A program made the translations under genes and the position numbers. From NCBI GenBank assembly GCA_016235065.1, contig JACRMB010000002.1, positions 124,001-188,000 on the forward strand: 64,000 nucleotides of DNA, read 5' to 3'. This document shows positions 8,837 to 29,464 of this stretch, piece by piece (the first letter of the stretch is position 1; each line of letters starts with the position of its first letter). The stretch is from Actinomycetota bacterium (GTDB lineage Bacteria > Actinomycetota > Thermoleophilia > BMS3ABIN01). The notes under the pieces are model-generated. The model had not been told where the DNA came from. It saw only the letters and a program-made list of their open reading frames with translations, and ran no database searches.

Positions 8837-9778
8837 GTGGCTGACGGCAGGAAAAAAACCGGTACCAGTACCAGCGCCGCTTCCGCTGGCAAAGCCGGGT
8901 CTGGCGGCAAAAGGACACGCCGCCTTCTGGGGATCCACATCCGCACCGCAAGTGGCCTGGTCACGGGGGCTCGTCATGCCCACGAGATCGGCTGCACGAC
9001 CTTCCAGATAATGTCCGGCAACCCTTCTGCCTGGAACCCCGGTGAACTGGATAAGGAACAGGCAGCCGAATTCGCTGCTTACCTTGATGAGAATGCGATG
9101 CGCCCCGTATTCCTCCATGCCGGCTACCTGATCAACCTCTCCTGCCGCACCGGGCGAAACGCGCCTCTTTATGCCAAATCTGTGAAATTACTCAATAAGA
9201 CGATAGAGAGAGCTGCCGCGCTCTCCTGCGAATATGTGGTCGTACATCTGGGAAGCCGCCGCGGGACCGGGGCTGATGAGGCGCTGGCGTCGCTGGTGGA
9301 TGGCCTCGGCAGGCTGGATAGGGAAGATTCCGGTCCGGTGCTTCTCCTCGAGAACAGCGCCGGCGCCGGCGATACCGTCGGTTCTACTTTTGAGGAGCTT
9401 GCCCTGGTACTGGCCGCGGCGGAAAAGCGCGGAGTCAGGCTGCCGCTTGGTATCTGCCTCGACACAGCCCATATGTGGGGAGCGGGCTATGACATGACTT
9501 CAGGCGCCGCAGCCCGAAGGACGGTCGACGAGTTCGATCGTCTGGTCGGCGTTGAGCGGCTGCATCTGATCCATCTCAACGATTCGCCACTCGAACTCGG
9601 AGCCAGAAGGGACAAGCACGAGCATCTGGGTTGCGGACTGATCCCCCCGAAAGGCCTTGAAGCCATCGTCCGCCATCCGAGACTCCGGTCGGTGGCCATG
9701 ATCATGGAGACGCCAGGCAGCACCGAACCCAGCGACCAGAAGCGAATGGACGATCTGCGGGTACTGGCGGGTATTTAG
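8837..9778 (+). CDS. nfo: Endonuclease IV (AP endonuclease)
   Basis: A 313-residue TIM-barrel enzyme that nicks DNA 5' to abasic sites in base-excision repair. Metal-ligand motifs of the family are present: VFLHAGYLINL, VVVHLGS, LLLENSAG, GICLDTAHMWGAGYD, and the strongly conserved HLNDSPLELGARRDKHEHLG. An EDTP-like MIMETPGST closes the barrel. About 35 basic N-terminal residues (GRKKTGTSTSA through KRTRR) precede the barrel and may aid DNA binding. It starts with GTG, 14 bases after the lepB stop, so it is likely co-transcribed with lepB. A strong palindromic terminator follows. Confidence 0.95.
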   Translation: MADGRKKTGTSTSAASAGKAGSGGKRTRRLLGIHIRTASGLVTGARHAHEIGCTTFQIMSGNPSAWNPGELDKEQAAEFAAYLDENAMRPVFLHAGYLINLSCRTGRNAPLYAKSVKLLNKTIERAAALSCEYVVVHLGSRRGTGADEALASLVDGLGRLDREDSGPVLLLENSAGAGDTVGSTFEELALVLAAAEKRGVRLPLGICLDTAHMWGAGYDMTSGAAARRTVDEFDRLVGVERLHLIHLNDSPLELGARRDKHEHLGCGLIPPKGLEAIVRHPRLRSVAMIMETPGSTEPSDQKRMDDLRVLAGI

Positions 9779-9817
9779 AAAATATGTATACGCCGGCCTC
9801 GGTTTACAGTTTTAAAA

Positions 9818-9849
9818 GGGGGGAACTGCCAATATTGGCAGTTCCCCCC
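9818..9849. terminator. Perfect 32-bp palindrome, bidirectional terminator
   Basis: A perfect inverted repeat centred at 9833/9834: six G, AACTGCC, AAT, then the exact complement ending in six C. It lies between the convergent nfo and the secreted-protein gene ending at 9869. On the minus strand it is followed by TTTTAAAA; on the plus strand a T-rich tract follows after about 15 bases. It should terminate both transcripts. Confidence 0.85.
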
Positions 9850-9868
9850 ACATTCACTATTACTTTTT

Positions 9869-12800
9869 CTAGTCCAGTACTGTTCCCAGCACCTCATTGA
9901 AGTAACCGTTCCAGGTAACACGCTGAGATGCCACGACGTTGCCGTCGGCGGATACCTCGACAGGGCCGTTCATCTTGCCGGGGAAGATAGGAGTCGCCTT
10001 GTCGTGCGCGGCGACGGTGCAGGTTTGCTTGCCAGGCTCGCAGTCCTGGACCACGCCGGCGATACTTATCTGATAGTGAACTTCTGTGTCGCCCGGGTTG
10101 GCCACCAGGACCCAGTTGGCCGAGCCGGCGGAAACCATGTCGTACCAGGTCCAATGGTAATCGGACGCCAGGGTGCTCTTGGGGTAGCCGGGCACCTCTT
10201 CAAAGGAGGAGCCGGCGACGATGCGCTGGGAAGCGATGACATTGCCGCCGGTGGCTATAACCTCCAACGGCCCGTCTATCTTGCCGTCGAAGGTATGCGT
10301 TACCTTGTCGTGGGCGGCGATGATGCAGCCTCCCACTGGGCAGGGTTGGATATCAGAACCGATTTTAGTCTGATAGGTGACGGGAGTGTCATTGGGGTTG
10401 GCGATCAACACCCAGTCGGTGTAGCCGGGACTAGCTTGGTCATACCAGGTCCAGAGGTAGTCGGCTGACAGCTCGCCGGCTGGGATGCCCGGGACCTCGT
10501 TAAAGGCGGCGCCGTAGTTAGATAGGACTCTCTGGGAGGCTATAACGTTTCGCTTGTCGGTAGGCCAGCTATGGCCCGCACCCGCAAGATAGGCCTTAAC
10601 CTCCACCGGTCCACCCATCTTGCCGGGGAAGGTGGGTGTCCAGTTCTTGCCCGGGGCGATGTCGATCTCGGTAGAAACCGGGGTGACGTCTTCAACGTTG
10701 GTAAAGTTGATGACCGCGTGGACCCACTCTGTGTCTGATGGGTTGGCGATTAGCACCCAGTTAGTGAAGCCGGGGCTCTTCTGGTCGTACCAGGTCCAGT
10801 AGAAGTGGTCGGAGAGCTTCTCTGAGTCGGTGCCGAGCACCTCCTCGAAGGAGTTACCCATGAGGCTGCGCTGGCTGACGATAGCTCTGGTGCTTGGCTG
10901 CGATGTCACTTTAACCGAGCCGTCCATTAAGCCTGGCTGACTGAAAACAAGCGTGTCGCCGCCGCTTACTACCCCTGGTCCCAAACCAAAGGAGTCGGCC
11001 AGACTTTTGGTGTCTCCGCCTATTGAGAGATTAAAGCTTAAATTACTTCCGCCTGCTGGATTGGCCATTAGAATCCAGTTTTGCATCGTTTTAGAGTCAT
11101 ACCAGGGCCAGTAGAAGTCGCGATCTCGTAACCAAAATGGATTTACTCTCATCTCAGCCAAGGATAGCCACGCGGTTGCACCCACATGGAGACGATGAAA
11201 GTACAGCCATGGATTTCCATCGTACAGGTTGAATCCTGTAGTCAGTCCATCCCGATCTGCCGCAAACATTCCACCTGATTCAAGCTGAGAAGATTGCAAA
11301 GACGCGATTAATGAACTGAATTGTTCATATTGGCCTAGAAAACCATAGGTTGCGGCCACTTGTGAGGTGCCTTCATACCAGACACCATCACGATCCTGAT
11401 TGAAATCAAAACCGCTGTCCACCGCATGATGCATTTCTGCATAGTCAAGTGCACCTGAGAAAATATCATCCTTTAATGACAATATGGCCCACACCTGTAT
11501 ATCAACGGGAATTACATCCTTATTGATTGTGACACCGTCTGTTGCAGTTCCAGTCCAGAATTTATGCTCAACCGGATCCCACATCGCCTGTACGAAGTTT
11601 CTTGCATGTTCAGCCCTCTCCCTCCAGACATCATCTCCTGTAATTAGAAAAAGACGCTGATATGCGGCATATAAGTCAATGTTGTGTTCGGTTGCCTTGT
11701 ATGTGAGAGCCGTCTGACTGTTTTCCCATCCCTTAAAACCCGCTCGATACCCGCCGGGATTTTGCTCACCGCCTGTGTCGCGGCAACAAGCTTCCACCCA
11801 ATTACCCATTTGCTCGACAGCGGAAAGGTATTGCTCTCCGCCTTCAAGTTCATAGTAAGCCAGCAGTGCCAGCATGGTCCAAGCCATGTTTCCGGTATCT
11901 GTACTTACCTGATACATGTCTTCGCTCCACCCATACTGAGAATCAAACCACCCAGGCATGCGCACAGTACCGCTCTGACCGTTCGGCGACCAGCCCGGAG
12001 GCAGAACAAGATCGCCCCCCTGATACGCGTTTCGTATCCGTCCATCATGAAAATACCGGTCATGAGACTGCGCATAAACCAACGCGTCGGCCAAATATCT
12101 AGCCCTCTCTTTATCACCTGATGCCAAAAAGGACAGCAAGGCCAGGTCGTTATCGTATGTGAAAGCAACATTCCGCATGACGACATCGAAATCATTTGCA
12201 GAATCGATGGTTTGATAGCTGACGAGGAAGCGCGGTTCATTCAGTCTTGGTTTGTCGTATTGAATATCGTCCAGGAAAAAGGTGATATCCCGGCCAGTCT
12301 GCTCAGCGTTGGTTACCCATCCAAACCCGCCTAAAACAGAACCAAGATTCTTTCCATTTAGATTGATCGTATATTTTGTCCACTGGGAAGAAAGAGTTAC
12401 AAAGCCTGTTGAAGCTTTGCGCGATGAATCGGGGAAAGGCGCTATTTGAACTCCTGTGCCGTTTAAATAGCCAATGCCAAAGGCAAAGAATTCTATTTTT
12501 TCACCCCCTTGCGCTCCCTTTGCCCAAAAGCTCAGCTGAGTGGCGCCGCTTAAGTCAATTCCTGCGTTTGGAAACGTGCCCCAATTCTCTTGGGGCGAAG
12601 TTTGACTTCCCTGCAAAGTGCCATTCATAAAATACCAGCCGCCCCAATTGTTACCCTTTGATATAAAAGTAGTTTTGATACAGTCAATACCGGAATGAGG
12701 ATTGTCTTTCCAGTTCTCGATCATGGCCGGAAGTGCATCCGCGTCCCCGCTGCTGCTCATTTTCCCTCTTGCGGCAAAGTGATTACCGGCAGCATGTGAA

Positions 12801-13000
12801 TCCGTGTAGACATCAAAAGCATCATGAAATTGATCCATGACATCGGCAAGGTATTTACTGGTCCGGTTTGCGCCAAGGTTCGACGAACCCGCTGAGCCTG
12901 AGGATAGCTGTACGTTCAGGAGAAGCATTAAACCGAGTATCAGCCAGGAAACCACGAGACCGGGAAGGATGGTGCGAGGTAATTTCTGTGATAAGTGCAT
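9869..13000 (-). CDS. Secreted toroid-fold (CAZyme-like) protein with four WxWYD repeats
   Basis: A 1043-residue exported protein. A signal peptide or membrane anchor covers residues 10-35. Residues about 45-250 resemble a jelly-roll carbohydrate-binding module (WGGWYFMNGTLQGS, LSFWAKGAQGGEKIEFF, ITFFLDDIQYDKP). Residues about 255-620 look like an alpha/alpha toroid of the kind found in glycoside hydrolases and polysaccharide lyases (DTGNMAWTMLALLAYYELEGG, ATEHNIDLYAAYQRLFLITGD, DIQVWAILSLKD, VHVGATAWLSLAEMRVNP-like end). From about 629 to the C-terminus there are four repeats starting near 629, 731, 847 and 946, each with W-[TP]-W-Y-D, NW-[VI]-L-[MIV]-ANP and SQR boxes. The same four-repeat cassette occurs in two other proteins of this window. 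DNA for residues 1-630 (11100-13000) is distinctly AT-richer than the repeat part. A GGAGG ribosome site precedes the ATG. The enzymatic activity is unknown. Confidence 0.85.
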   Translation of the reverse strand: MHLSQKLPRTILPGLVVSWLILGLMLLLNVQLSSGSAGSSNLGANRTSKYLADVMDQFHDAFDVYTDSHAAGNHFAARGKMSSSGDADALPAMIENWKDNPHSGIDCIKTTFISKGNNWGGWYFMNGTLQGSQTSPQENWGTFPNAGIDLSGATQLSFWAKGAQGGEKIEFFAFGIGYLNGTGVQIAPFPDSSRKASTGFVTLSSQWTKYTINLNGKNLGSVLGGFGWVTNAEQTGRDITFFLDDIQYDKPRLNEPRFLVSYQTIDSANDFDVVMRNVAFTYDNDLALLSFLASGDKERARYLADALVYAQSHDRYFHDGRIRNAYQGGDLVLPPGWSPNGQSGTVRMPGWFDSQYGWSEDMYQVSTDTGNMAWTMLALLAYYELEGGEQYLSAVEQMGNWVEACCRDTGGEQNPGGYRAGFKGWENSQTALTYKATEHNIDLYAAYQRLFLITGDDVWRERAEHARNFVQAMWDPVEHKFWTGTATDGVTINKDVIPVDIQVWAILSLKDDIFSGALDYAEMHHAVDSGFDFNQDRDGVWYEGTSQVAATYGFLGQYEQFSSLIASLQSSQLESGGMFAADRDGLTTGFNLYDGNPWLYFHRLHVGATAWLSLAEMRVNPFWLRDRDFYWPWYDSKTMQNWILMANPAGGSNLSFNLSIGGDTKSLADSFGLGPGVVSGGDTLVFSQPGLMDGSVKVTSQPSTRAIVSQRSLMGNSFEEVLGTDSEKLSDHFYWTWYDQKSPGFTNWVLIANPSDTEWVHAVINFTNVEDVTPVSTEIDIAPGKNWTPTFPGKMGGPVEVKAYLAGAGHSWPTDKRNVIASQRVLSNYGAAFNEVPGIPAGELSADYLWTWYDQASPGYTDWVLIANPNDTPVTYQTKIGSDIQPCPVGGCIIAAHDKVTHTFDGKIDGPLEVIATGGNVIASQRIVAGSSFEEVPGYPKSTLASDYHWTWYDMVSAGSANWVLVANPGDTEVHYQISIAGVVQDCEPGKQTCTVAAHDKATPIFPGKMNGPVEVSADGNVVASQRVTWNGYFNEVLGTVLD

Positions 13001-13071
13001 CTAGCCTCCAAAAGTCGTCCTCGGACTTATTGTATTCAGCTGATGACTTACTTGAGGTTTAAAGGAAGGTA

Positions 13072-13100
13072 AGGGTAAACCTAATATGTGAAAATGTCAA
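13072..13100 (-). promoter_or_regulatory. Candidate promoter for the secreted toroid-fold protein
   Basis: On the minus strand a perfect TTGACA (13100-13095), a 17-base spacer and TACCCT (13077-13072, 3 of 6) lie about 70 bases before the ATG at 13000. An inverted repeat GGTTTA/TAAACC (13057-13082 region) overlaps the -10 box and could be an operator. Confidence 0.35.
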
Positions 13101-13163
13101 CCAAAACGCGATTGCGGCATATTGCATTTCAACTGAGGTGTCCTCAATATCGGGTTCTAACTT

Positions 13164-13195
13164 AGGTGACGTCAATAAGTATCAAGCCGTCACCT
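13164..13195 (-). other. Inverted repeat AGGTGACG/CGTCACCT
   Basis: Eight-base perfect arms (13164-13171 and 13188-13195) with a 16-base loop, in the 244-base gap between the RpiR-type regulator gene and the secreted protein it precedes. It has no T-run after it on the minus strand, so it could equally be an operator for the regulator or a weak terminator. Confidence 0.3.
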
Positions 13196-13244
13196 CTTTA
13201 TCAAATGGAAACATCTCAGGAACCGAGAAAAAGATTTTGCTGAG

Positions 13245-14120
13245 CTACAGCCAGTCCGAGCTTAACGGCAGGCTGTGCAGCTTCGCTATATGGGCGTCGT
13301 AGCCGCGTTTATTCCTGATATAGAGCGCCGACACCAGGGCGTTGGCCAGGCTGAACGCACCCACGAGCGAAGGCGCGAACGAGGCTGTGTCCAGCTGGCA
13401 GTAGAGGTTGCGGTCGGCGAGCTTTGACACCTCTGACAGAGTGTTCTCGCTGATACCTACAGATACTGCCCCTCGTTCACGAGCCGCCTTTATCAGCCTT
13501 ATCAGGAACTGGTGAGCTGTCCGGAACCCGATGGCGATCAGCACCGAATCCTCGTCCAGGCCGGCCAGGCCGGCGACCTGCTCCTCTGAATTCCCGGTGA
13601 CCGCGGTCACCGGAAGCCCCATGATTGTCAGGTAATAGCGAAGATACCCGGCAACCATGGCCGCCTCGAACATCCCCGCGACGTAGATCGTATCTGCTTT
13701 TTCCAGAAGCTCGATCGTCTGCAGGAAGTCGTCCGCCTGGTTCTTCTTCATGGTCTCCTCGAGGATGCCCACATCTACACGGACTGCGCGCCCCGAGAAA
13801 TCGTCGTCCACGGGGAAAGCCATCTGGCTCTCCGCGCTTCCACCCGGCGCCGCAGCCATCAGGCGATGCTCTTCCCAGGCAGCCCTCATCATCTCGGGAA
13901 AACCGGAGAATCCCAGGAACTGGGCGAAGCGTACAACCGTTGAGCTGGTTGTGGCGGTGTGGCGTGCGAGATCCTGGGCAGTGAGCACCGGGGCTTCAGA
14001 GAGGTGGTCGATCAGGTAGCGGGCGATGGCCTTTCGCGCCTTTGAATAACTATCGAAGTCATCCTGAAGGGAACGCAGCAGACTGCCATTCGTCGCTCGG
14101 TTGTTTCGCCGCGCCTCCAT
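13245..14120 (-). CDS. MurR/RpiR-family transcriptional regulator (HTH + SIS)
   Basis: A 291-residue regulator. The N-terminal helix-turn-helix of the RpiR type covers residues about 10-85 (SKARKAIARYLIDH, LTAQDLARHTATTSSTVVRFAQFLGFSGFPEM). A SIS sugar-phosphate-binding domain follows at about 140-275 (ADTIYVAGMFEAAMVAGYL, SVLIAIGFRTAHQFLIRLI, GAVSVGISEN). These proteins sense phosphosugars and control sugar or cell-wall catabolic genes. No Shine-Dalgarno site is visible; TTGCAA, a 17-base spacer and TAACCT end about 10 bases before the ATG, suggesting a nearly leaderless message. The next gene on the same strand encodes the carbohydrate-active-like secreted protein, a natural but unproven target. 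Confidence 0.9.
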   Translation of the reverse strand: MEARRNNRATNGSLLRSLQDDFDSYSKARKAIARYLIDHLSEAPVLTAQDLARHTATTSSTVVRFAQFLGFSGFPEMMRAAWEEHRLMAAAPGGSAESQMAFPVDDDFSGRAVRVDVGILEETMKKNQADDFLQTIELLEKADTIYVAGMFEAAMVAGYLRYYLTIMGLPVTAVTGNSEEQVAGLAGLDEDSVLIAIGFRTAHQFLIRLIKAARERGAVSVGISENTLSEVSKLADRNLYCQLDTASFAPSLVGAFSLANALVSALYIRNKRGYDAHIAKLHSLPLSSDWL

Positions 14121-19309: not shown

Positions 19310-22300
19310 ATGAGCAAGCATGGCTACCCCAGCAAGCTTCTGGCGACTACGGCAATCCTGGTTATCTGTATCATCGGCCTCATCGCTATCCTGGCGGGAA
19401 CAGCGGCATCGCAGGACAGTCCGTCCGCCCAGACCATCTCGACTACACCGACCGCCCAGACCACGACAGCAGCACAATCAGCCCAGACGGCACAGGCTGC
19501 CCAGGCGCATCCGGCTATGGCGATGCCCGTCGGCACAGGCGCGGGTACAACCCCTGACCCTCATGCTCGGCACAAGGTCACTCAGGCTGACCGTGAGGCC
19601 GCCGCCGACCGCGCTAAAGTGATGGGCGCCGGCGCCAATCCCGTAAGTAATCTTTCCAGTCCTGATGCGATAACTGCCGCTCTCGACCCCCGCGGCGTGC
19701 CCGATTATTTTGGAACCACTCCGAATTACGCACTCAGCCCCCTGCCGGAGACCCAGGGCCTGGGTCCGGCGCGCAACTATTACAGCGCCTGGTATGACGC
19801 CATGTACATGCAGAACTGGGTACTGATGGCCAATCCGACCGGCGCGACGCTTCACCTCAACTTCGGACTTTCCATCGCCGGCAACGCCAAGACGCTGCCG
19901 GATACTTTTGGCCAGGGCGCCGGCGTCGTGCCAGGCGCCAAGACCCTGACCTACTCGGAGCCCGGTCTCATGGGCGGTCCGGTGAAAGCTACTTCCCTTA
20001 CCGGCGGCCAGGCGATCGTCAGCCAGCGCAGCCTGCGGGGAGATTCCATCGAAGAAGTCCTGACCTCTGAGACGAACAAGCTGTCCGACCACTTTTACTG
20101 GCCCTGGTACGACGAAGTGACTCCCGGTTTTGAGAACTGGCTTATTGTTGACAACCCATCGGCGACGGAGACGGTGCATGTCGTCATCGCCTACCTCGAT
20201 TCCGCTACAGCGATGCCGGTCACCATGGGCGAGAGCGACATCGCCCCGGGCGCTACCTGGACTCCCCATTTCCCCGGCCAGATGGTTGGACCGATCGAAC
20301 TCAAGGCATACCTGTCCACGGGGACCTGGGCCACCGATCCCCGGCCGGTCGTAGCTTCGCAGAGGGTGCTGTCCTATTACGGCAACGCTTTTAACGAGTT
20401 CCCGGGTATCCCGGCTAACGAGCTGACGACTGATTACCTATGGACCTGGTATGACATGCAGAGTCCCGGCTTTCAGAACTGGGTGCTGATTGCCAATCCC
20501 GACCTGGTCAACGCCGTCGATTACGAGATCAAGATCGCCGGTGACTCGGTTGAGACCGGCACTCTTCCCGCCGGCGGCATCGTCACACCGATCTTCAATG
20601 GGATAAAGGACGGGCCGGTGGAAGTCATCTCCACGGGTACCGGCGGTGGCGACGGCAAGGTCATCGCCACCCAGCGCATTGTCGCCGGACCCTCGTTCGG
20701 TGAGGTCGTCGGCTATCCCAGATCTGCCCTTTCCGGCGACTACCAGTGGACCTGGTACGACATGTTGAGCGAAGGCAGCGTCAACTGGGTGATGATTTCC
20801 AATCCCGGAGCTTCCGACGTCACTTACACCATCAAGATCGCTGGAACTACAGTAGATAGTGGCACCATAACCGCTGGTGGTTATGTCATACCGGCGTTCC
20901 CGGGCGGGCTAGGCGGACCGGTGCAGGTTACCACCTCAAGCCCGGTAGTCGCTTCCCAGCGCGTCCTCTGGAACGGCTACTTCAACGAGGTCCTGGGAGT
21001 CGGCGGCATCAGCCCTGCGATCGTGGTCCCTGATACCGGCATCAGGAAATTCGAAGACAGGCTTCCGGGGCTTACAGAGCAGAACGAGAACAATCTCGGC
21101 CAGTACATCCCGGTCGCGATCCCGGATACAGAGACTTACCCCGGCGCTGACTACTACGAGATCTCACTGGTGAGGTACACGGAGCAGATGCATTCCGATC
21201 TGCCCGTGACCCAGCTGCAGGGGTATGTTCAGACCAACACAAATGATCCGTCGGTCAGCGCGCCTCACTACCTCGGACCGATGATCATAGCCCAGAAGGA
21301 CAGGCCGGTGCGCATCAAGTTCACCAACGAGCTGCCCACGGGCTCAGGCGGAGATCTATTCCTGCCCGTAGACGAGAGTGTCATGGGCGCCGGCTCCTAC
21401 AATATCGACGACCCTGACAACCCGGGACAGTTCCTGACGGGCGTCTTCACCCAGAACCGGGCGATCATGCACCTCCACGGAGGCGCCACGCCATGGATCA
21501 GCGACGGGACCCCGCATCAGTGGATAACCCCGGAGGGTGAATCCACGAATTACCCCGTGGGCATGAGCATGGAGAACGTGCCCGACATGTGGTTCGATCC
21601 GACCACTCACGAGCCGGTTCCTGAAGGCACGCCTGGCGCGACCATCGATCCCGGCCCCGGTTCGCAGACGCTCTACTATACGAACGAACAGAGTTCGAGG
21701 CTGATGTGGTACCACGATCATGCCTACGGCCTGACCAGGGTCAACGTCTATTCCGGAGAGGCTGCTGGTTATCTCCTGGAAGACGACGTCGAGCAGCAGC
21801 TGGTCTCCGACGATATAATCCCGGCCGATCAGATCCCGTTGATCATCCAGGACAAGACCTATGTTCCGGACGATGAACAGCTGGAAGCCCAGGATCCGAC
21901 CTGGGACAAGCCCAACTGGGGCGGGGAAGGGAACTTATGGTTCCCGCACGTCTACATGCCGGCTCAGAATCCGGCTGATCCCGGCGGCATGAACGCCATG
22001 GGCCGCTGGCATTATGGGCCCTGGTTCTTCCCGCCGACCATCGGCATCGACAATCCGCCGATACCGAACCCGCTGTTCGACTGCGGTACGGGCGGTGAAT
22101 GCACCCGGCCCTGGGAGCCGGCGACGATGCCGGCCACGCCCAATCCGTCGATAGCGGCAGAGGCCTTCATGGATACTCCGGTGGTCAACGGCACGCCATA
22201 TCCGACGGTGAACGTGGATCCAAAGGCATACCGGTTCCGCATCCTGAACGCATCGAACGACCGTTTCTGGAACCTGCAGCTGTACAAGGCCGATACCGTC

Positions 22301-23899
22301 GCCCTCACGGGTGACGGTAGGCACGACACTGAAGTGAAGATGGTCCCGGCGGTAACGACTCCCGGATTCCCCGAGGGCTGGCCGGTCGACGACCGGGAAG
22401 GCGGAGTTCCGGATCCGGCGATGGCCGGGCCGGACTTCATCCAGATAGGCAACGAGGGCGGATTCCTGCCGGCTCCAGTGGTGGTCCCCAACCAGCCTGT
22501 TGACTGGAACCTGGATCCGACGACGTTCAACTTCGGCAACGTGAGCAGCCATGCCCTGCTTCTGGGCACAGCCGAGCGTGCCGACGTGATCATCGATTTC
22601 TCCCAGTATGCCGGAGAGACGCTGATTCTCTATAACGACGCGCCCGCGGCTTTCCCGGCGCGCGACCCGAGGTATGACTACTACACCGGAGCCCCGGATC
22701 TGACGGATACCGGCGGCTCGCCGACGCCGCTTTCCGGATATGGCCCGAACACGCGTACGGTGATGCAGATCAAGGTTGCCGACGAAACCCCGGCGCCTGC
22801 TTTCGATATCGCGGCCCTGAACGCCGCCTTCGCCTCATATGGGGCGACGCCGGGCGCTTACGCGGCTTCGCAGGATCCGGTCCTGGTGCCGCAGGCAGAG
22901 TACAATTCGGCCTACAACGCGAATTACCCGACGACCAACTACGCGCGCATCTTCGACTCGCAGATGACCTTCCTGCCGCAGGGCTCGGTCACACCGTTGA
23001 CGATACCGTTCGAGAAGAAGGCGATCCAGGACGAGCAGGGCGAGGCGTTCGACAGTTACGGCCGCATGAGCGCCAACATGGGCCTGCAGCTGCCGTTCAC
23101 CCCCGGAGGTACCGATTTCGTCCTCCAGGGCTATATAGACGGGACGACGGAAGGCGTGCAGACCTCGGCGACGCCGATGGCGCCAGCCGCCGGTGACGGC
23201 ACCCAGATCTGGAAGATCACCCAGAACGGCGTCGATACCCATACGATCCATTTCCATCTGTTCAACGTGCAGCTGATAAACAGGGTCGCCTGGGATGGAT
23301 CTGTCAGCATGCCGGACGCCAACGAGCTGGGCTGGAAGGAGACCGTCAGGGTGAATCCGCTCGAAGACACGATCGTGGCCCTGAGGCCGGTGGCGCCGAC
23401 GCTGCCGTTCGAAGTGCCCGGCAGCAGCCGCCCCATGGATGTGACCCAGCCGATCGGCTCCGCCAGCGGCTTCAGGCAGATCGATCCGTACTCCGGCATG
23501 CCGATGACGGTGACCAACCAGGTAGTGAATTATGGATGGGAATACGTCTGGCACTGCCACCTGCTGGGCCATGAGGAGAACGACATGATGCGCCCCATCA
23601 GGATCTCGGTGAATCAGCCGGCGGCGCCCAGCGGGCTGACGGCGAACGAGGCGGTGCCCGGAACTGTGACCCTCGACTGGGTCAATAACGCCACGGTGCC
23701 GGCGGTAACGACATTCGTCATCGAGAGGTCGACCAGTTCCGACTTCAGGCAGAACCGGGCCACCTTCTCGGTGGCGGCGCCGACGGTTACGTATAACGAT
23801 GTAGTCGGCCCCGAAGCCGCGACCTACTATTACCGGGTGAGAGCGGAGAATGCTACCGGTTTCTCCGGCTGGTCGAATACGGCGATAGTCGTGACCTGA
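19310..23899 (+). CDS. Surface multicopper oxidase with WxWYD cassette and FN3 domain
   Basis: A 1529-residue exported protein. Signal peptide 10-35, then a T/A/Q-rich linker (38-75). Four WxWYD repeats start near 158, 262, 376 and 478 and end at about 565 (NGYFNEVLG). A CotA-like multicopper oxidase domain follows (about 575-1435) with all copper motifs intact: HLHGG (H721, H723), WYHDHA (H802, H804), HTIHFHLF (H1311, H1314, H1316) and HCHLLGHEENDMM (C1416 as type 1 ligand, H1421, axial M1426). The C-terminus (1440-1529) is a fibronectin type III domain (PAAPSGLTANEAVPGTVTLDW). CotA relatives oxidise phenolics, bilirubin or Mn(II) with O2; the substrate here is open. Fusion of an oxidase to this repeat cassette suggests immobilisation on the cell surface or on a polymer. 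A GC-rich hairpin follows the stop. Confidence 0.93.
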   Translation: MSKHGYPSKLLATTAILVICIIGLIAILAGTAASQDSPSAQTISTTPTAQTTTAAQSAQTAQAAQAHPAMAMPVGTGAGTTPDPHARHKVTQADREAAADRAKVMGAGANPVSNLSSPDAITAALDPRGVPDYFGTTPNYALSPLPETQGLGPARNYYSAWYDAMYMQNWVLMANPTGATLHLNFGLSIAGNAKTLPDTFGQGAGVVPGAKTLTYSEPGLMGGPVKATSLTGGQAIVSQRSLRGDSIEEVLTSETNKLSDHFYWPWYDEVTPGFENWLIVDNPSATETVHVVIAYLDSATAMPVTMGESDIAPGATWTPHFPGQMVGPIELKAYLSTGTWATDPRPVVASQRVLSYYGNAFNEFPGIPANELTTDYLWTWYDMQSPGFQNWVLIANPDLVNAVDYEIKIAGDSVETGTLPAGGIVTPIFNGIKDGPVEVISTGTGGGDGKVIATQRIVAGPSFGEVVGYPRSALSGDYQWTWYDMLSEGSVNWVMISNPGASDVTYTIKIAGTTVDSGTITAGGYVIPAFPGGLGGPVQVTTSSPVVASQRVLWNGYFNEVLGVGGISPAIVVPDTGIRKFEDRLPGLTEQNENNLGQYIPVAIPDTETYPGADYYEISLVRYTEQMHSDLPVTQLQGYVQTNTNDPSVSAPHYLGPMIIAQKDRPVRIKFTNELPTGSGGDLFLPVDESVMGAGSYNIDDPDNPGQFLTGVFTQNRAIMHLHGGATPWISDGTPHQWITPEGESTNYPVGMSMENVPDMWFDPTTHEPVPEGTPGATIDPGPGSQTLYYTNEQSSRLMWYHDHAYGLTRVNVYSGEAAGYLLEDDVEQQLVSDDIIPADQIPLIIQDKTYVPDDEQLEAQDPTWDKPNWGGEGNLWFPHVYMPAQNPADPGGMNAMGRWHYGPWFFPPTIGIDNPPIPNPLFDCGTGGECTRPWEPATMPATPNPSIAAEAFMDTPVVNGTPYPTVNVDPKAYRFRILNASNDRFWNLQLYKADTVALTGDGRHDTEVKMVPAVTTPGFPEGWPVDDREGGVPDPAMAGPDFIQIGNEGGFLPAPVVVPNQPVDWNLDPTTFNFGNVSSHALLLGTAERADVIIDFSQYAGETLILYNDAPAAFPARDPRYDYYTGAPDLTDTGGSPTPLSGYGPNTRTVMQIKVADETPAPAFDIAALNAAFASYGATPGAYAASQDPVLVPQAEYNSAYNANYPTTNYARIFDSQMTFLPQGSVTPLTIPFEKKAIQDEQGEAFDSYGRMSANMGLQLPFTPGGTDFVLQGYIDGTTEGVQTSATPMAPAAGDGTQIWKITQNGVDTHTIHFHLFNVQLINRVAWDGSVSMPDANELGWKETVRVNPLEDTIVALRPVAPTLPFEVPGSSRPMDVTQPIGSASGFRQIDPYSGMPMTVTNQVVNYGWEYVWHCHLLGHEENDMMRPIRISVNQPAAPSGLTANEAVPGTVTLDWVNNATVPAVTTFVIERSTSSDFRQNRATFSVAAPTVTYNDVVGPEAATYYYRVRAENATGFSGWSNTAIVVT

Positions 23900-24599: not shown

Positions 24600-27482
24600 A
24601 TGTCAACCGGCGACACCACGATAGAGACTGCCCGCGCGAAAATAGCCGAACTGGTCGAGCGATTCCGCGCCAACGAAGCGGCCTACAAGAACCCTGCCTA
24701 CAACGAAACCATGACTCGCCGAGAATTCATCGATCCGTTCTTCAAAGCGCTCGGCTGGGATGTGGACAATGAACGCGGCTATGCTCCCGCCTACAAGGAT
24801 GTAATCCACGAGGACGCCATCAAGGTGGGCGGCATGACCAAAGCGCCCGACTACTGCTTCCGCATCGGCGGCCAGCGCAAATTTTTCGTCGAGGCAAAGA
24901 AGCCGTCAGTGGACATGAAGAACGACCCCGAACCTTACTATCAGCTTCGCCGCTACGCCTATAGCGCCAAGCTCCCGCTTTCTATCGTCACCGATTTTCA
25001 GGAACTAGCCATCGTCGATTGCCGCGCCAAGCCTTCGCCGAAAGAAAAAGCAAGCACCGGCCGCATCCGCTACTGGCATTACGAGGAATATCCTGACCAT
25101 ATCGAGGAGCTGCTAGAAACGTTCTCTCCCGAGGGAATCAAAAAAGGTGGCCTCGACAAGATGGCGATCACGGCAAAATCGAAGCGCGGCACCGGCGAGG
25201 TCGACAAGGAATTCCTCAGGGAGATAGAAACATGGCGTGAACTGCTGGCGCGAAACATCGCCATACGCAACCCCGGCCTTAGCCAGCGGGAACTAAACGA
25301 GGCGGTCCAGGTCACCATCGACCGCATCATCTTCCTGCGTATCTGTGAGGACAGGGGAATCGAGGAATACGGCCAGCTCCAGGCTATGCAGAACGGCGCC
25401 AACATCTATGCCCGCCTCTGCGAACTTTTCCAGAAAGCGGACGAGCGATATAACTCGGGCCTGTTCCATTTCAGGGAGGAGCGCGGCAACCCCAGCCATC
25501 CGGACGAGTTGACCCTCGGACTGGCCATCGACGACAAGACGCTGAAGCAGATAGTCAAAGGACTCTATTACCCGGATAGTCCCTACGAGTTCTCAGTGCT
25601 GCCCATCGACATTCTCGGGCAGGTCTACGAACAGTTCCTGGGAAAGGTCATCCGTCTTACGGCCGGTCACCAGGCCAAAATCGAGGACAAACCCGAGGTC
25701 AAGAAAGCCGGCGGTGTCTATTACACGCCTACCTATATCGTTGATTACATCGTCAGGAACACAGTTGGGAAGCTGCTGGAAGGCTCGACGCCGACCAAGG
25801 CTGCCAAACTGCGAATCCTCGACCCGGCCTGCGGCTCCGGCTCATTTCTGATCGGGGCCTACGAATATCTGCTGGACTGGCACCGAGACTGGTATTCGGA
25901 AAATGACGCCGAGAAGTGGGCCAAAGGCAAGGAGCCCCGCCTGTTCGAGGGCAAGAATGGCTGGCAGCTGACAACCGCCGAGAAGAAGCGCATCCTGCTT
26001 AACAATATATATGGCGTGGATATCGATCCCCAGGCGGTCGAAGTCAGCAAGCTGTCGCTGCTGCTGAAAGTGCTGGAGGAAGAATCACAGGAGACCATGA
26101 ATGCCCAGCTCAAGTTCTTCCACGAGCGCGCGCTGCCGGATCTGGGGAACAACATCAAGTGCGGTAATTCGCTGATCGGAACGGATTTCTTCGAAGGTCA
26201 GCAGTTGGGGTTGCTGGATGAGGAAGAGGCGCTTCGGATAAACGCGTTTGATTGGGATGGTCCGGACGGATTTCCCGAGATCATGAAATCTGGGGGATTC
26301 GATGCGGTGATCGGGAATCCGCCGTATGGCTTGGTGACTGATGATTTATTAAAGAACTATTTTGAGAATCAATTTATAGCAACCGAAGGCCGCGTTGACA
26401 ACTATGAATTGTTCATTGAGCAAGGCATAGGTTTATGTAAAGAGGGCTTGCCTTTGGGGTTAATTGTTCCTAGCCCTCTTCTCAGTAATCTTTACGCACG
26501 AAAACTACGACAGTTTATTCTCAAGAATAGCTCTATTAAAGAAATAACCAACTTTGGCATGGATGTATTTACTGATCCGACTATTCATACGTGCATAATC
26601 ATATTGGCTCGTGGTGTAAAGCTGGATCATCGAATAAAAGTCAGGAAACAAGTAATCGCAGAGCAACAACTCAGGGAAGATTTTGATTATGATGTATTGC
26701 AATCCGGATTTGTTAACACGGAAAATGCCACGTTTGATATTTTTATCGATCCCAGTTCATCGCAACTTATGAAGAAATTATTTCATCTTTCCCGACCGCT
26801 AGGTGACATTTGCTATATAAGACAATGCATAAAGACAGGAAACGATAAGCTTTATGTCACAAAATCTGTCTCGCGACCAAGTGCTTCTTGGAAACCGACT
26901 CTGCGGGGAAAATCAATTTCGCGGTATGCGACTTTGGATGCATGCCTGTGGCTAAATTATGGTCCATGGCTCGCACGCAATTGGAAAAATGTGTCTTTTT
27001 ATGAAACGCCAAAAATAGCAATTCGCGAAACCGGAAATAGAATTACCGCTACCGTTGATTTTGAGGAACGATATTTCTTAAGTTCGCTCTATAGCATTTA
27101 TCCAAAAAAGGACGAAGATCACAGCTCACTGCTTTTTATCCTAGGCTTGCTCAATTCTTCGCTGGCTACATTTTTTGTTAAGAAGGTCGCTTTCGATCTT
27201 ACAAAGGGCGCTTTCACAAAAACTCGTACGAATCAATTAGGGCGCTTGCCTATTCATCGCATTGATTTCTCCAACTCCACCGATAAATCCCGCCACGACC
27301 AGATGGTTGAACTCGTCGAGCGAATGCTCGAAATGAACAAACGCCTCCAGGCCGCCAAAACCGCTCACGAAAAAGAATCTCTCCAGCGCCAGATTGATGC
27401 CACCGACCGCCAGATAGACCGCCTTGTCTATGAGCTCTACGATCTCACCGACGATGAAATCAAAATCGTTGAAAGTGCATGA
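24600..27482 (+). CDS. Type IIG (Eco57I-like) restriction-modification enzyme
   Basis: A 960-residue single-chain restriction endonuclease and N6-adenine methyltransferase. The N-terminal nuclease has a PD-(D/E)xK motif: P83-D84, then FFVEAKK with E98 and K100. A helical linker (about 190-370) leads to the methyltransferase: YYTPTYIVDYIV (motif X), DPACGSGSF at 408-416 (SAM binding, motif I) and NPPY at 573-576 (catalytic motif IV). Residues about 580-885 form the TaqI-like target-recognition region, and the C-terminus ends in a helical segment (RLQAAKTAHEKESLQRQIDATDRQIDRLVYELYDL). Bases about 26330-27250, the recognition part, are strikingly AT-rich, while both flanks are GC-rich like the genome. 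All catalytic motifs are intact, so it should both cut and methylate. The recognition sequence cannot be predicted. mrr and fic genes follow closely. Confidence 0.93.
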   Translation: MSTGDTTIETARAKIAELVERFRANEAAYKNPAYNETMTRREFIDPFFKALGWDVDNERGYAPAYKDVIHEDAIKVGGMTKAPDYCFRIGGQRKFFVEAKKPSVDMKNDPEPYYQLRRYAYSAKLPLSIVTDFQELAIVDCRAKPSPKEKASTGRIRYWHYEEYPDHIEELLETFSPEGIKKGGLDKMAITAKSKRGTGEVDKEFLREIETWRELLARNIAIRNPGLSQRELNEAVQVTIDRIIFLRICEDRGIEEYGQLQAMQNGANIYARLCELFQKADERYNSGLFHFREERGNPSHPDELTLGLAIDDKTLKQIVKGLYYPDSPYEFSVLPIDILGQVYEQFLGKVIRLTAGHQAKIEDKPEVKKAGGVYYTPTYIVDYIVRNTVGKLLEGSTPTKAAKLRILDPACGSGSFLIGAYEYLLDWHRDWYSENDAEKWAKGKEPRLFEGKNGWQLTTAEKKRILLNNIYGVDIDPQAVEVSKLSLLLKVLEEESQETMNAQLKFFHERALPDLGNNIKCGNSLIGTDFFEGQQLGLLDEEEALRINAFDWDGPDGFPEIMKSGGFDAVIGNPPYGLVTDDLLKNYFENQFIATEGRVDNYELFIEQGIGLCKEGLPLGLIVPSPLLSNLYARKLRQFILKNSSIKEITNFGMDVFTDPTIHTCIIILARGVKLDHRIKVRKQVIAEQQLREDFDYDVLQSGFVNTENATFDIFIDPSSSQLMKKLFHLSRPLGDICYIRQCIKTGNDKLYVTKSVSRPSASWKPTLRGKSISRYATLDACLWLNYGPWLARNWKNVSFYETPKIAIRETGNRITATVDFEERYFLSSLYSIYPKKDEDHSSLLFILGLLNSSLATFFVKKVAFDLTKGAFTKTRTNQLGRLPIHRIDFSNSTDKSRHDQMVELVERMLEMNKRLQAAKTAHEKESLQRQIDATDRQIDRLVYELYDLTDDEIKIVESA

Positions 27483-27522
27483 CGAACGCCACACTCAATA
27501 ATTACTTCCGAAAGGTCTGACC

Positions 27523-28422
27523 ATGCCAATCCCCGACTATCAAACCACAATGCTCCCTCTGCTTACTTATGCCGGTGATGGCACTGAACACACGTTGAGG
27601 GAAGCCGTAGATTATCTGGCAGAACAGTTCAAGCTGACCGCTCAGGAGAGGAATGCCCTTCTACCAAGCGGGCAGCAGGCAGTATTCATTAATCGGGTTG
27701 GTTGGGCCAGGACTTACCTCAAAAAGGCTGGCCTGCTGGAGTCTCCCCGCCGAGGATATTTCAAGATCACTAATCGAGGATTGAAGGTACTTAAAGACGC
27801 GCCGCCCCGTATCGACGTTTCTTACCTAAAGCAGTTCCCCGAATTTGTGGAGTTTCAGACTCCGAGGAAAAAGAAAGAAACGAGTCGTGAGTTTGAAGAA
27901 ATCGAGGCCACACCGGAAGAAAGCATAGGCATGGGCTACAAAAAGATACGAGAAGATCTCGAAGCGGAGTTGCTCGATCGAGTCAAAAAATGCAGCCCTG
28001 ATTTCTTCGAAAAACTTGTCGTGGAGCTGATAGTAAAGATGGGCTATGGTGGGTCCAGACAGGATGCGGGTCAGGCCATTGGTAAAACCGGTGACGAAGG
28101 AATCGATGGCGTTATCAAGGAAGACAAGCTAGGCCTGGATAATGTCTATATTCAGGCGAAGAAATGGGAAAATACGGTTAGCAGGGCTGAGATTCAGAAA
28201 TTTGCTGGCGCTCTACAGGGGCAACGGGCTAGGAAAGGCATTTTCATCACGACGTCTTCATTTCAGAAGGGCGCTCTGGAATACGTTTCCAAAATTGACA
28301 GCAAGATCGTACTGATCGATGGTCATGAGCTTACGGAGCTGATGGTGGATAACAATGTGGGAGTATCTCCCATGGCGGTATATGAGATTAAAAAAATGGA
28401 TGAGGACTTTTTTGAGCTATAA
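27523..28422 (+). CDS. mrr: Mrr-type restriction endonuclease
   Basis: A 299-residue protein with an N-terminal winged-helix Mrr_N domain (residues 5-90, [49 protein letters not shown]). After a charged linker (105-145) comes the Mrr catalytic domain (about 160-285), with GDEGIDGV (D195) and YIQAKKW (Q211-x-K213), the D-QxK variant of the PD-(D/E)xK site typical of Mrr, and GIFITTSSF further on. Mrr enzymes cut DNA carrying foreign methylation. It lies 40 bases after the type IIG gene and overlaps the next gene (fic), so all three are probably one transcript. It must tolerate the methylation made by the neighbouring enzyme. Confidence 0.93.
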
Positions 28423-29464
28423 ACCCAAATTCTCCATCACCAACAGGATTTCATCGGCGCTCACAAAAATCGAGCGGGCGCGGGGCTTTCTTGATGCAGC
28501 TAAACTTTCAGATGACTGGATCCTCGATATGCAGGAGCGGGCGCTTGTCCGGGAGGCACATCACACTACTCATATCGAAGGGACTCATCTGACCCTGTCG
28601 CAATCCGAGCAGCTTTTTGCGGGCAAGAAAGTCAATGGCGCTGATCCTCAGGATGTTCGCGAGCTGCTTAATTACCGCACCGCTTTTGAGTTCGTAACCG
28701 GGTATGTTGAGCGCGGAGACCCGATAAACGAAGGGTTGATCCGGGAAATCCACAAATATCTTGTCAAAGGGGTTCGCGGTGGCTCGGCCGCTCCCGGAAA
28801 ATACCGGATAGTACAAAATTATGTAGTCAACTCCTTGACCGGTGACATCATATACACTCCGCCGCCAGCTAATGAAGTGCCCATCATGATGGCGGAAATG
28901 GTTGCGTGGCTCAACAAAAAGTCAGAAATACCGGCGGTCCTGATTGCCGGAATCGCCCAGCATCAACTCGTTAACATCCATCCATTCCTGGATGGCAATG
29001 GTCGGACGGCGAGACTGCTTTCCACGCTTTGCCTTTACCGCTCGGGATATGATTTCAGGCGTTTATTCACGATCAGTGAATACTACGATCGAGACCGGCC
29101 GGCCTATTATCAGGCTATTCAGGACGTTCGCGAAAGCAAAATGGACCTGACGGGATGGCTGGAATACTTCACACAGGGATTGGCGGCTCAATTACTGGAA
29201 GTGCGTGAGCGGGGGGAACTGGTGATTCGCGCCGATCTGATTCTTGCCAAGGGTCGAAAGGCTGGACTGAACGAAAGGCAGGTCGATCTTCTTTCGTATC
29301 TTCTCAAGCGTGGAAAGGGAACGATTGCCGAATTCGAGACCGAACTAAAATTAAATCGGCGTACGCTGCAAAGAGATCTTAAGCTGCTTGGCGAGAAGGG
29401 TTTCTCACGGGAAGTCGGCACCAGCCCTACCGATCCAACCAGGCACTATGAACCGATACTGTGA
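28382..29464 (+). CDS. Fic-domain protein with C-terminal winged helix
   Basis: About 360 residues. The Fic active site is complete: HPFLDGNGR (catalytic H200) near the end of the core helix bundle. Upstream, TTHIEG matches the (S/T)xxxE(G/N) inhibitory motif placed N-terminal to the core, a self-inhibited (class II) architecture. The family leader YKPKFSIT is present. The C-terminal 80 residues ([29 protein letters not shown]) form a winged-helix DNA-binding domain. Fic enzymes transfer AMP or related groups to target proteins. The reading frame overlaps the end of mrr by about 40 bases; starts at 28382 or 28400 are both possible and the frame is open back to 28355. The overlap suggests translational coupling to mrr. 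The target protein is unknown. Confidence 0.9.

Follow-up and report, generated by a model that had tools for sequence, protein, structure and literature searches.

A role in anchoring proteins to the cell wall has been proposed for LGFP repeats (PF08310; PMC3314691), and LGFP is listed as a cell-wall-binding domain in lysins (PMC8223927). The WYD cassette described here is, like LGFP, a C-terminal repeat module common to several secreted enzymes, and LGFP replaces it on homologues in a sister species, but the two differ in sequence and in repeat length (54 vs. ~100 aa). FG-GAP repeats (PF01839, PF13517), short propeller-type repeats for which we found no sequence relation to WYD, occupy the same place as WYD in a multicopper oxidase, FG-GAP being the sister species' version. 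Among catalytic domains, the nearest described fold class is that of the alpha/alpha6-toroid enzymes (GH76, GH78, GH116, GH94, GH127, and cellobiose 2-epimerase); the enzyme studied here shares this class but, unlike those families, has its own motifs (YDN, TEHNxD, and WxEGT) and no Pfam match above cut-off. The gene arrangement around some of its toroid-only relatives, which lie beside GT2 and HlyD genes in agrobacteria and Nitrobacter, resembles that of bgsBA-type beta-glucan synthase operons. The bgsBA operon is linked to mixed-linkage glucan, and the R. etli operon is bicistronic, without a toroid gene (PMC9495663). Unlike these operons, the gene considered here has no adjoining synthase. 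In the literature searched, we found no precedent for the cassette or for domain capture of this kind.

The gene lies in a stretch of 64,000 nucleotides from an Actinomycetota genome of the class Thermoleophilia (contig JACRMB010000002.1), hereafter the window. It encodes what would be a secreted, surface-displayed, putative polysaccharide-active enzyme, with the predicted part order of signal segment, jelly-roll glycan-binding domain, alpha/alpha-toroid glycoside-hydrolase-like putative catalytic domain, and four-repeat WYD cassette (Table 1).

Table 1. Features of the fusion gene and its insertion site (window coordinates).
Feature	Position	Strand	Basis
Inserted slot between convergent nfo and rpiR-type gene	9779..13244		comparison with close relatives
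Perfect 16+16 nt palindrome (32 nt), terminator-like, between convergent nfo and fusion gene	9818..9849		unique in genome
Gene for 1043-aa fusion protein	9869..13000	-	open frame
WYD cassette, residues 626-1043, four repeats of ~100 aa	9872..11125	-	WYD motifs at 631, 735, 850, 950
Cassette repeat 1; first ~80 codons AT-rich, enzyme-like	10811..11125	-	composition scans
Composition junction, codons ~679-711, start of conserved block SQRSLMGNSFEEVLG..WTWYD	10870..10966	-	change-point scans
Putative catalytic alpha/alpha toroid, ~residues 254-622	11135..12241	-	homologue alignment, AlphaFold model, fold and profile matches
Invariant Glu543 (WYEGT motif), candidate catalytic acid or base	11372..11374	-	60 homologues
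Invariant Glu438 (TEHNID motif), candidate catalytic acid or base	11687..11689	-	60 homologues
Invariant Asp283 (YDN motif), candidate active-site residue	12152..12154	-	60 homologues
Jelly-roll domain, ~residues 49-248	12257..12856	-	AlphaFold model, pLDDT 96; phmmer matches
N-terminal hydrophobic signal/anchor segment, ~residues 1-35	12896..13000	-	read from sequence

Gene and Insertion Site

The slot is flanked by nfo (8837-9778) and an rpiR-type gene (13245-14120). The gap between these two genes is 3466 bp in the window genome vs. 10-90 bp in close relatives, where they are convergent as well; the complete fusion gene is a private insertion in a slot that is empty in those relatives. The sequence-only reading took the catalytic part to be a recent acquisition, and the sister genomes do not refute this: they carry no full-length orthologue, and the site is empty. 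Atypical composition, phyletic incongruence, and an empty site in relatives, the marks of a laterally acquired gene, are all present. The palindrome beside nfo is likely a two-way terminator; it was also considered as the end of a mobile element, a candidate rejected because the genome holds no second copy.

Elsewhere in the window, positions 24600-29464 form a low-GC island with a large methylase-like ORF (NPPY motif), a possible restriction-endonuclease-like ORF, and a Fic-like ORF, all named from motifs only; this is probably another acquired island.

The Enzyme Part

Residues 45-625 are modelled with a mean pLDDT of 96 as a jelly roll and an alpha/alpha toroid. The fold search returned 420 PDB matches with E <= 0.001, with toroid enzymes throughout the top 50; the neighbours, glycoside hydrolases and epimerases of toroid fold, are all distant (the best TM-score among those listed is 0.44 of the query). 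A profile of the enzyme family reaches cellobiose 2-epimerases at E 2e-7, with GH76 and GH127 as further weak matches. No Pfam model scores above its curated cut-off on the fusion protein, GH127 (PF07944) being sub-threshold at 18.5-20.4 bits against a curated 24.9, and a sequence search of PDB with this protein alone returned nothing. Six acidic residues (Asp283, Asp314, Glu438, Asp442, Asp500, and Glu543) are invariant across 60 homologues, and there are no characterised members among the homologues found.

Full-length homologues at 50-61% identity are scattered over bacterial and archaeal phyla: Planctomycetota (Phycisphaerae), Fischerbacteria, Lentisphaerota (Lentisphaerae), Bacillota (Peptococcaceae), Acidobacteriota (Bryobacteraceae), Nitrospirota, methanogens, and others. 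Homologues from actinobacterial gut bacteria form a separate group with 100% support, and the fusion enzyme falls outside it (in a quick tree). A search of 59 relatives gave no enzyme match, and 298 other genomes of the class gave no full-length match and two weak partial ones; no phage records encoding the enzyme were found. The enzyme part thus belongs to a patchy, multi-phylum family and is foreign in pattern, which upholds the earlier proposal of an acquired catalytic part. None of 80 fetched enzyme-family loci carries the cassette, and other C-terminal modules occur among the relatives, as read from sequence: FG-GAP-like repeats in Methanoregula (L198) and a dockerin-like tail in L133.

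The gene neighborhoods of relatives give some indication of substrate. Toroid-only relatives adjoin a cellulose-synthase-type GT2 and an HlyD protein in Agrobacterium and Nitrobacter and a GT2 in two cyanobacteria, and relatives of the jelly roll come after GH17 domains in Chlorohelix and Haliscomenobacter. No jelly-roll plus toroid forms were found beside beta-glucan synthases, so the beta-glucan link rests on the toroid-only relatives and the GH17 neighbors of the jelly roll. We tentatively infer, with rather low confidence as to the substrate, that the fusion protein could work at the cell surface, bound to it, on a polymer of beta-glucan-like type. The toroid-only proteins next to cellulose-synthase-type GT2 genes (L117, L119, L123, L154, and L168) are unannotated; they may be partners of beta-glucan synthases in glycan processing that have so far been overlooked.

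The WYD Cassette and Its Replacement in a Sister Species

The C-terminal part of the fusion protein is a WYD cassette, its four repeats carrying the motifs WYD...NWVLIANP...GPVEV...ASQR. The window genome has ~28 cassette genes, in which the partners include a multicopper oxidase, GH26 (twice), M4 and M23 peptidases, NosD helices, and PD40 propellers. Strong matches come only from the window genome's own family, with remote ones (~22-32% identity) elsewhere in the phylum; no relatives were found in Pfam, NCBIfam, or PDB. The cassette model is mostly beta and of moderate confidence (one of five models was confident), and a fold search with it gave no credible analogue. The cassette is therefore native to the window genome's family and restricted to that lineage. 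The sequence-only reading had called it resident; this stands in so far as the module belongs to the lineage, in many copies, and falls as regards the site, which is empty in relatives. Nor is the cassette a fresh copy of a neighbor, since its closest counterpart within the genome shares only 59% identity with it.

Cassette matches are absent from three congeners (G001, G004, and G005) and from G011 and G014, and other family members have many; this pattern suggests wholesale loss or gain, perhaps together with partner machinery. One of the three, G005, is the sister of the window genome on nfo plus rpiR, and its module census, which is partial, covers ~0.8 Mb. The window's multicopper oxidase with an internal WYD cassette (19310-23899) has counterparts in G004 and G005 (L220, L221) that are 83-84% identical to it over 960 residues and carry FG-GAP exactly in the WYD position. 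In G005, LGFP stands instead of WYD on relatives of the M4 protease (67%), GH26 (81% over 258 aa), and glucosaminidase-like (63%), CAP-like (65%), and BNR (40%) proteins, so that, in all, homologues of six cassette-bearing proteins have LGFP or FG-GAP in place of WYD. One G005 contig (C42, L292) holds a cluster of six LGFP-repeat secreted proteins, five of which are related to WYD proteins of the window genome; as these five are clustered on one contig, exchange of modules within one and the same protein context is demonstrated only for the multicopper oxidase. A genome-wide switch to FG-GAP in the sister species was rejected, since few FG-GAP proteins occur there, and the fusion protein itself has no LGFP (PF08310) match.

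This replacement is the best evidence for the role of the WYD cassette. By analogy, and unexpectedly, WYD would fill the slot of a proposed cell-wall anchor, and it probably attaches the fusion enzyme to the cell surface.

The Composition Break and Its Position

In the sliding profile, G+C content falls from ~0.59 to 0.47 on entering the enzyme part; the hand counts made earlier in two short intervals (37 of 60 at 10561-10620 and 27 of 60 at 12601-12660) proved exact on recount. Codon usage was referred to ~350 kb of stretches from the window genome and to the housekeeping genes of the window. Amino-acid-corrected GC3 is 0.43 for residues 1-625, against a genome expectation of 0.69 (0.78 by the housekeeping genes), and 0.71 for the cassette overall, or 0.76 for most of it; in permutations of the codon series (CUSUM), the observed deviation was never reached (p < 2e-4). 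Usage remains non-uniform after amino-acid composition is corrected for, so that this check does not refute the sequence-only reading either, and the composition break within the gene is real, extreme, and far beyond chance. Among those cassette genes of the window genome whose N-terminal part is of some size, the GC gap between cassette and N-terminal part is clearly widest here, and among the cassette genes scanned from the window genome and related genomes this gene has the highest change-point LLR (68.7; next, 25.5).

The position of the break is where the earlier account fails. It was thought to fall near 11050-11120, at the domain boundary; the cassette starts at 11125, and the change is best placed at residue 707, supported over codons 679-711 or 693-710 by two references (the plain-nucleotide estimate is 11021, range 10899-11039). 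The seam thus lies ~80 codons inside the first of the four repeats, at the most conserved block of that repeat, and the cassette DNA of codons ~706-745, where it falls, is among the most conserved between genes. Residues 626-692, the first 67 of the cassette, have a GC3 of 0.48, which cannot be told apart from that of the enzyme (p = 0.59) but differs from that of the remaining cassette (0.76; p = 2e-5). The resulting internal step of -0.24 is the most extreme of 54 aligned cassettes (mean -0.006, SD 0.07). Because the seam is so far into the cassette, the break is no direct mark of the joining of enzyme and cassette, as it had been supposed to be.

Discussion

That a foreign enzyme has been mounted on a surface module of the lineage is, we believe, very probable. 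How this came about is less certain, and the history that we prefer, to which we give a probability of roughly 0.6, has two steps, with the seam made by recombination between cassettes. Horizontal transfer would have brought the enzyme part into the lineage, and its fusion to a WYD cassette would have taken place against an AT-rich background; later, recombination at the conserved block that closes repeat 1 would have exchanged the rest of that cassette, the last part of repeat 1 and repeats 2-4, for the corresponding stretch of a GC-rich one. The seam lies inside a conserved cassette block, and recombination between cassettes is the simplest reading of this. AT-rich cassette genes are indeed present in the window genome, as a GH26-WYD gene (G000 contig C3, L041:13496-15955) is AT-rich throughout (GC3 0.39 and 0.41). 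Quick, unconverged trees of the two parts of the cassette, built on few columns, place both parts near the cassettes of multicopper-oxidase type and speak neither for nor against different histories of the two.

A simpler history, in which a single step fused the foreign catalytic part to a GC-rich cassette that was already there, with the join at the domain boundary, would account equally for a foreign enzyme and a native type of cassette, both of which are supported. We consider it unlikely, because a seam at the boundary (codon 626) is 10.8 log-likelihood units worse than the best position, ~80 codons into the cassette, and an internal step as large is seen in no other cassette. It is similarly improbable that the whole chimeric gene was imported from an unsampled family member with the break already in place. 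The gene does arrive as a complete, private insertion, and repeats 2-4 have their closest counterparts outside this species (in G002 at 71% and in G012 at 69%), although 71% was the best found and no donor cassette of high identity came to light. Against such an import, the enzyme is missing from the relatives and, at full length, from the other genomes of the class searched, and the fusion event would merely be shifted to another genome, not removed.

There is little to recommend a break without historical meaning, arising from expression or codon selection that differs between enzyme and cassette: the third-position GC content of cassettes does generally lie a little above that of their own N-terminal partners, but the usual difference is far smaller, the internal step has no equal in any other cassette, and the enzyme is independently foreign by distribution. 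An assembly chimera is hardly credible, as the frame is open across the seam, the conserved cassette is unbroken, the contig is 259 kb long, and the assembly is 0.57% contaminated.

Beyond the two-step history, a broader and somewhat doubtful proposal is that WYD attaches proteins to the surface as a module not described before, that it is bound to machinery of its own, and that lineages gain or lose it wholesale, the same catalytic domains being remounted on WYD, LGFP, or FG-GAP between sister species; the conserved blocks might then serve as recombination handles for the quick display of foreign enzymes, and the seam would be the scar of one such exchange.

The fusion gene is a testable case of a foreign enzyme placed on a bacterial surface, and it draws attention to an unannotated repeat module; the known modules found in its place in a sister species allow a guess at its role. 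That the seam lies within the module rather than at the join of the parts suggests that recombination between copies helps to mount foreign enzymes. If cassettes do act as recombination handles, domain capture by secreted proteins would become predictable from sequence.
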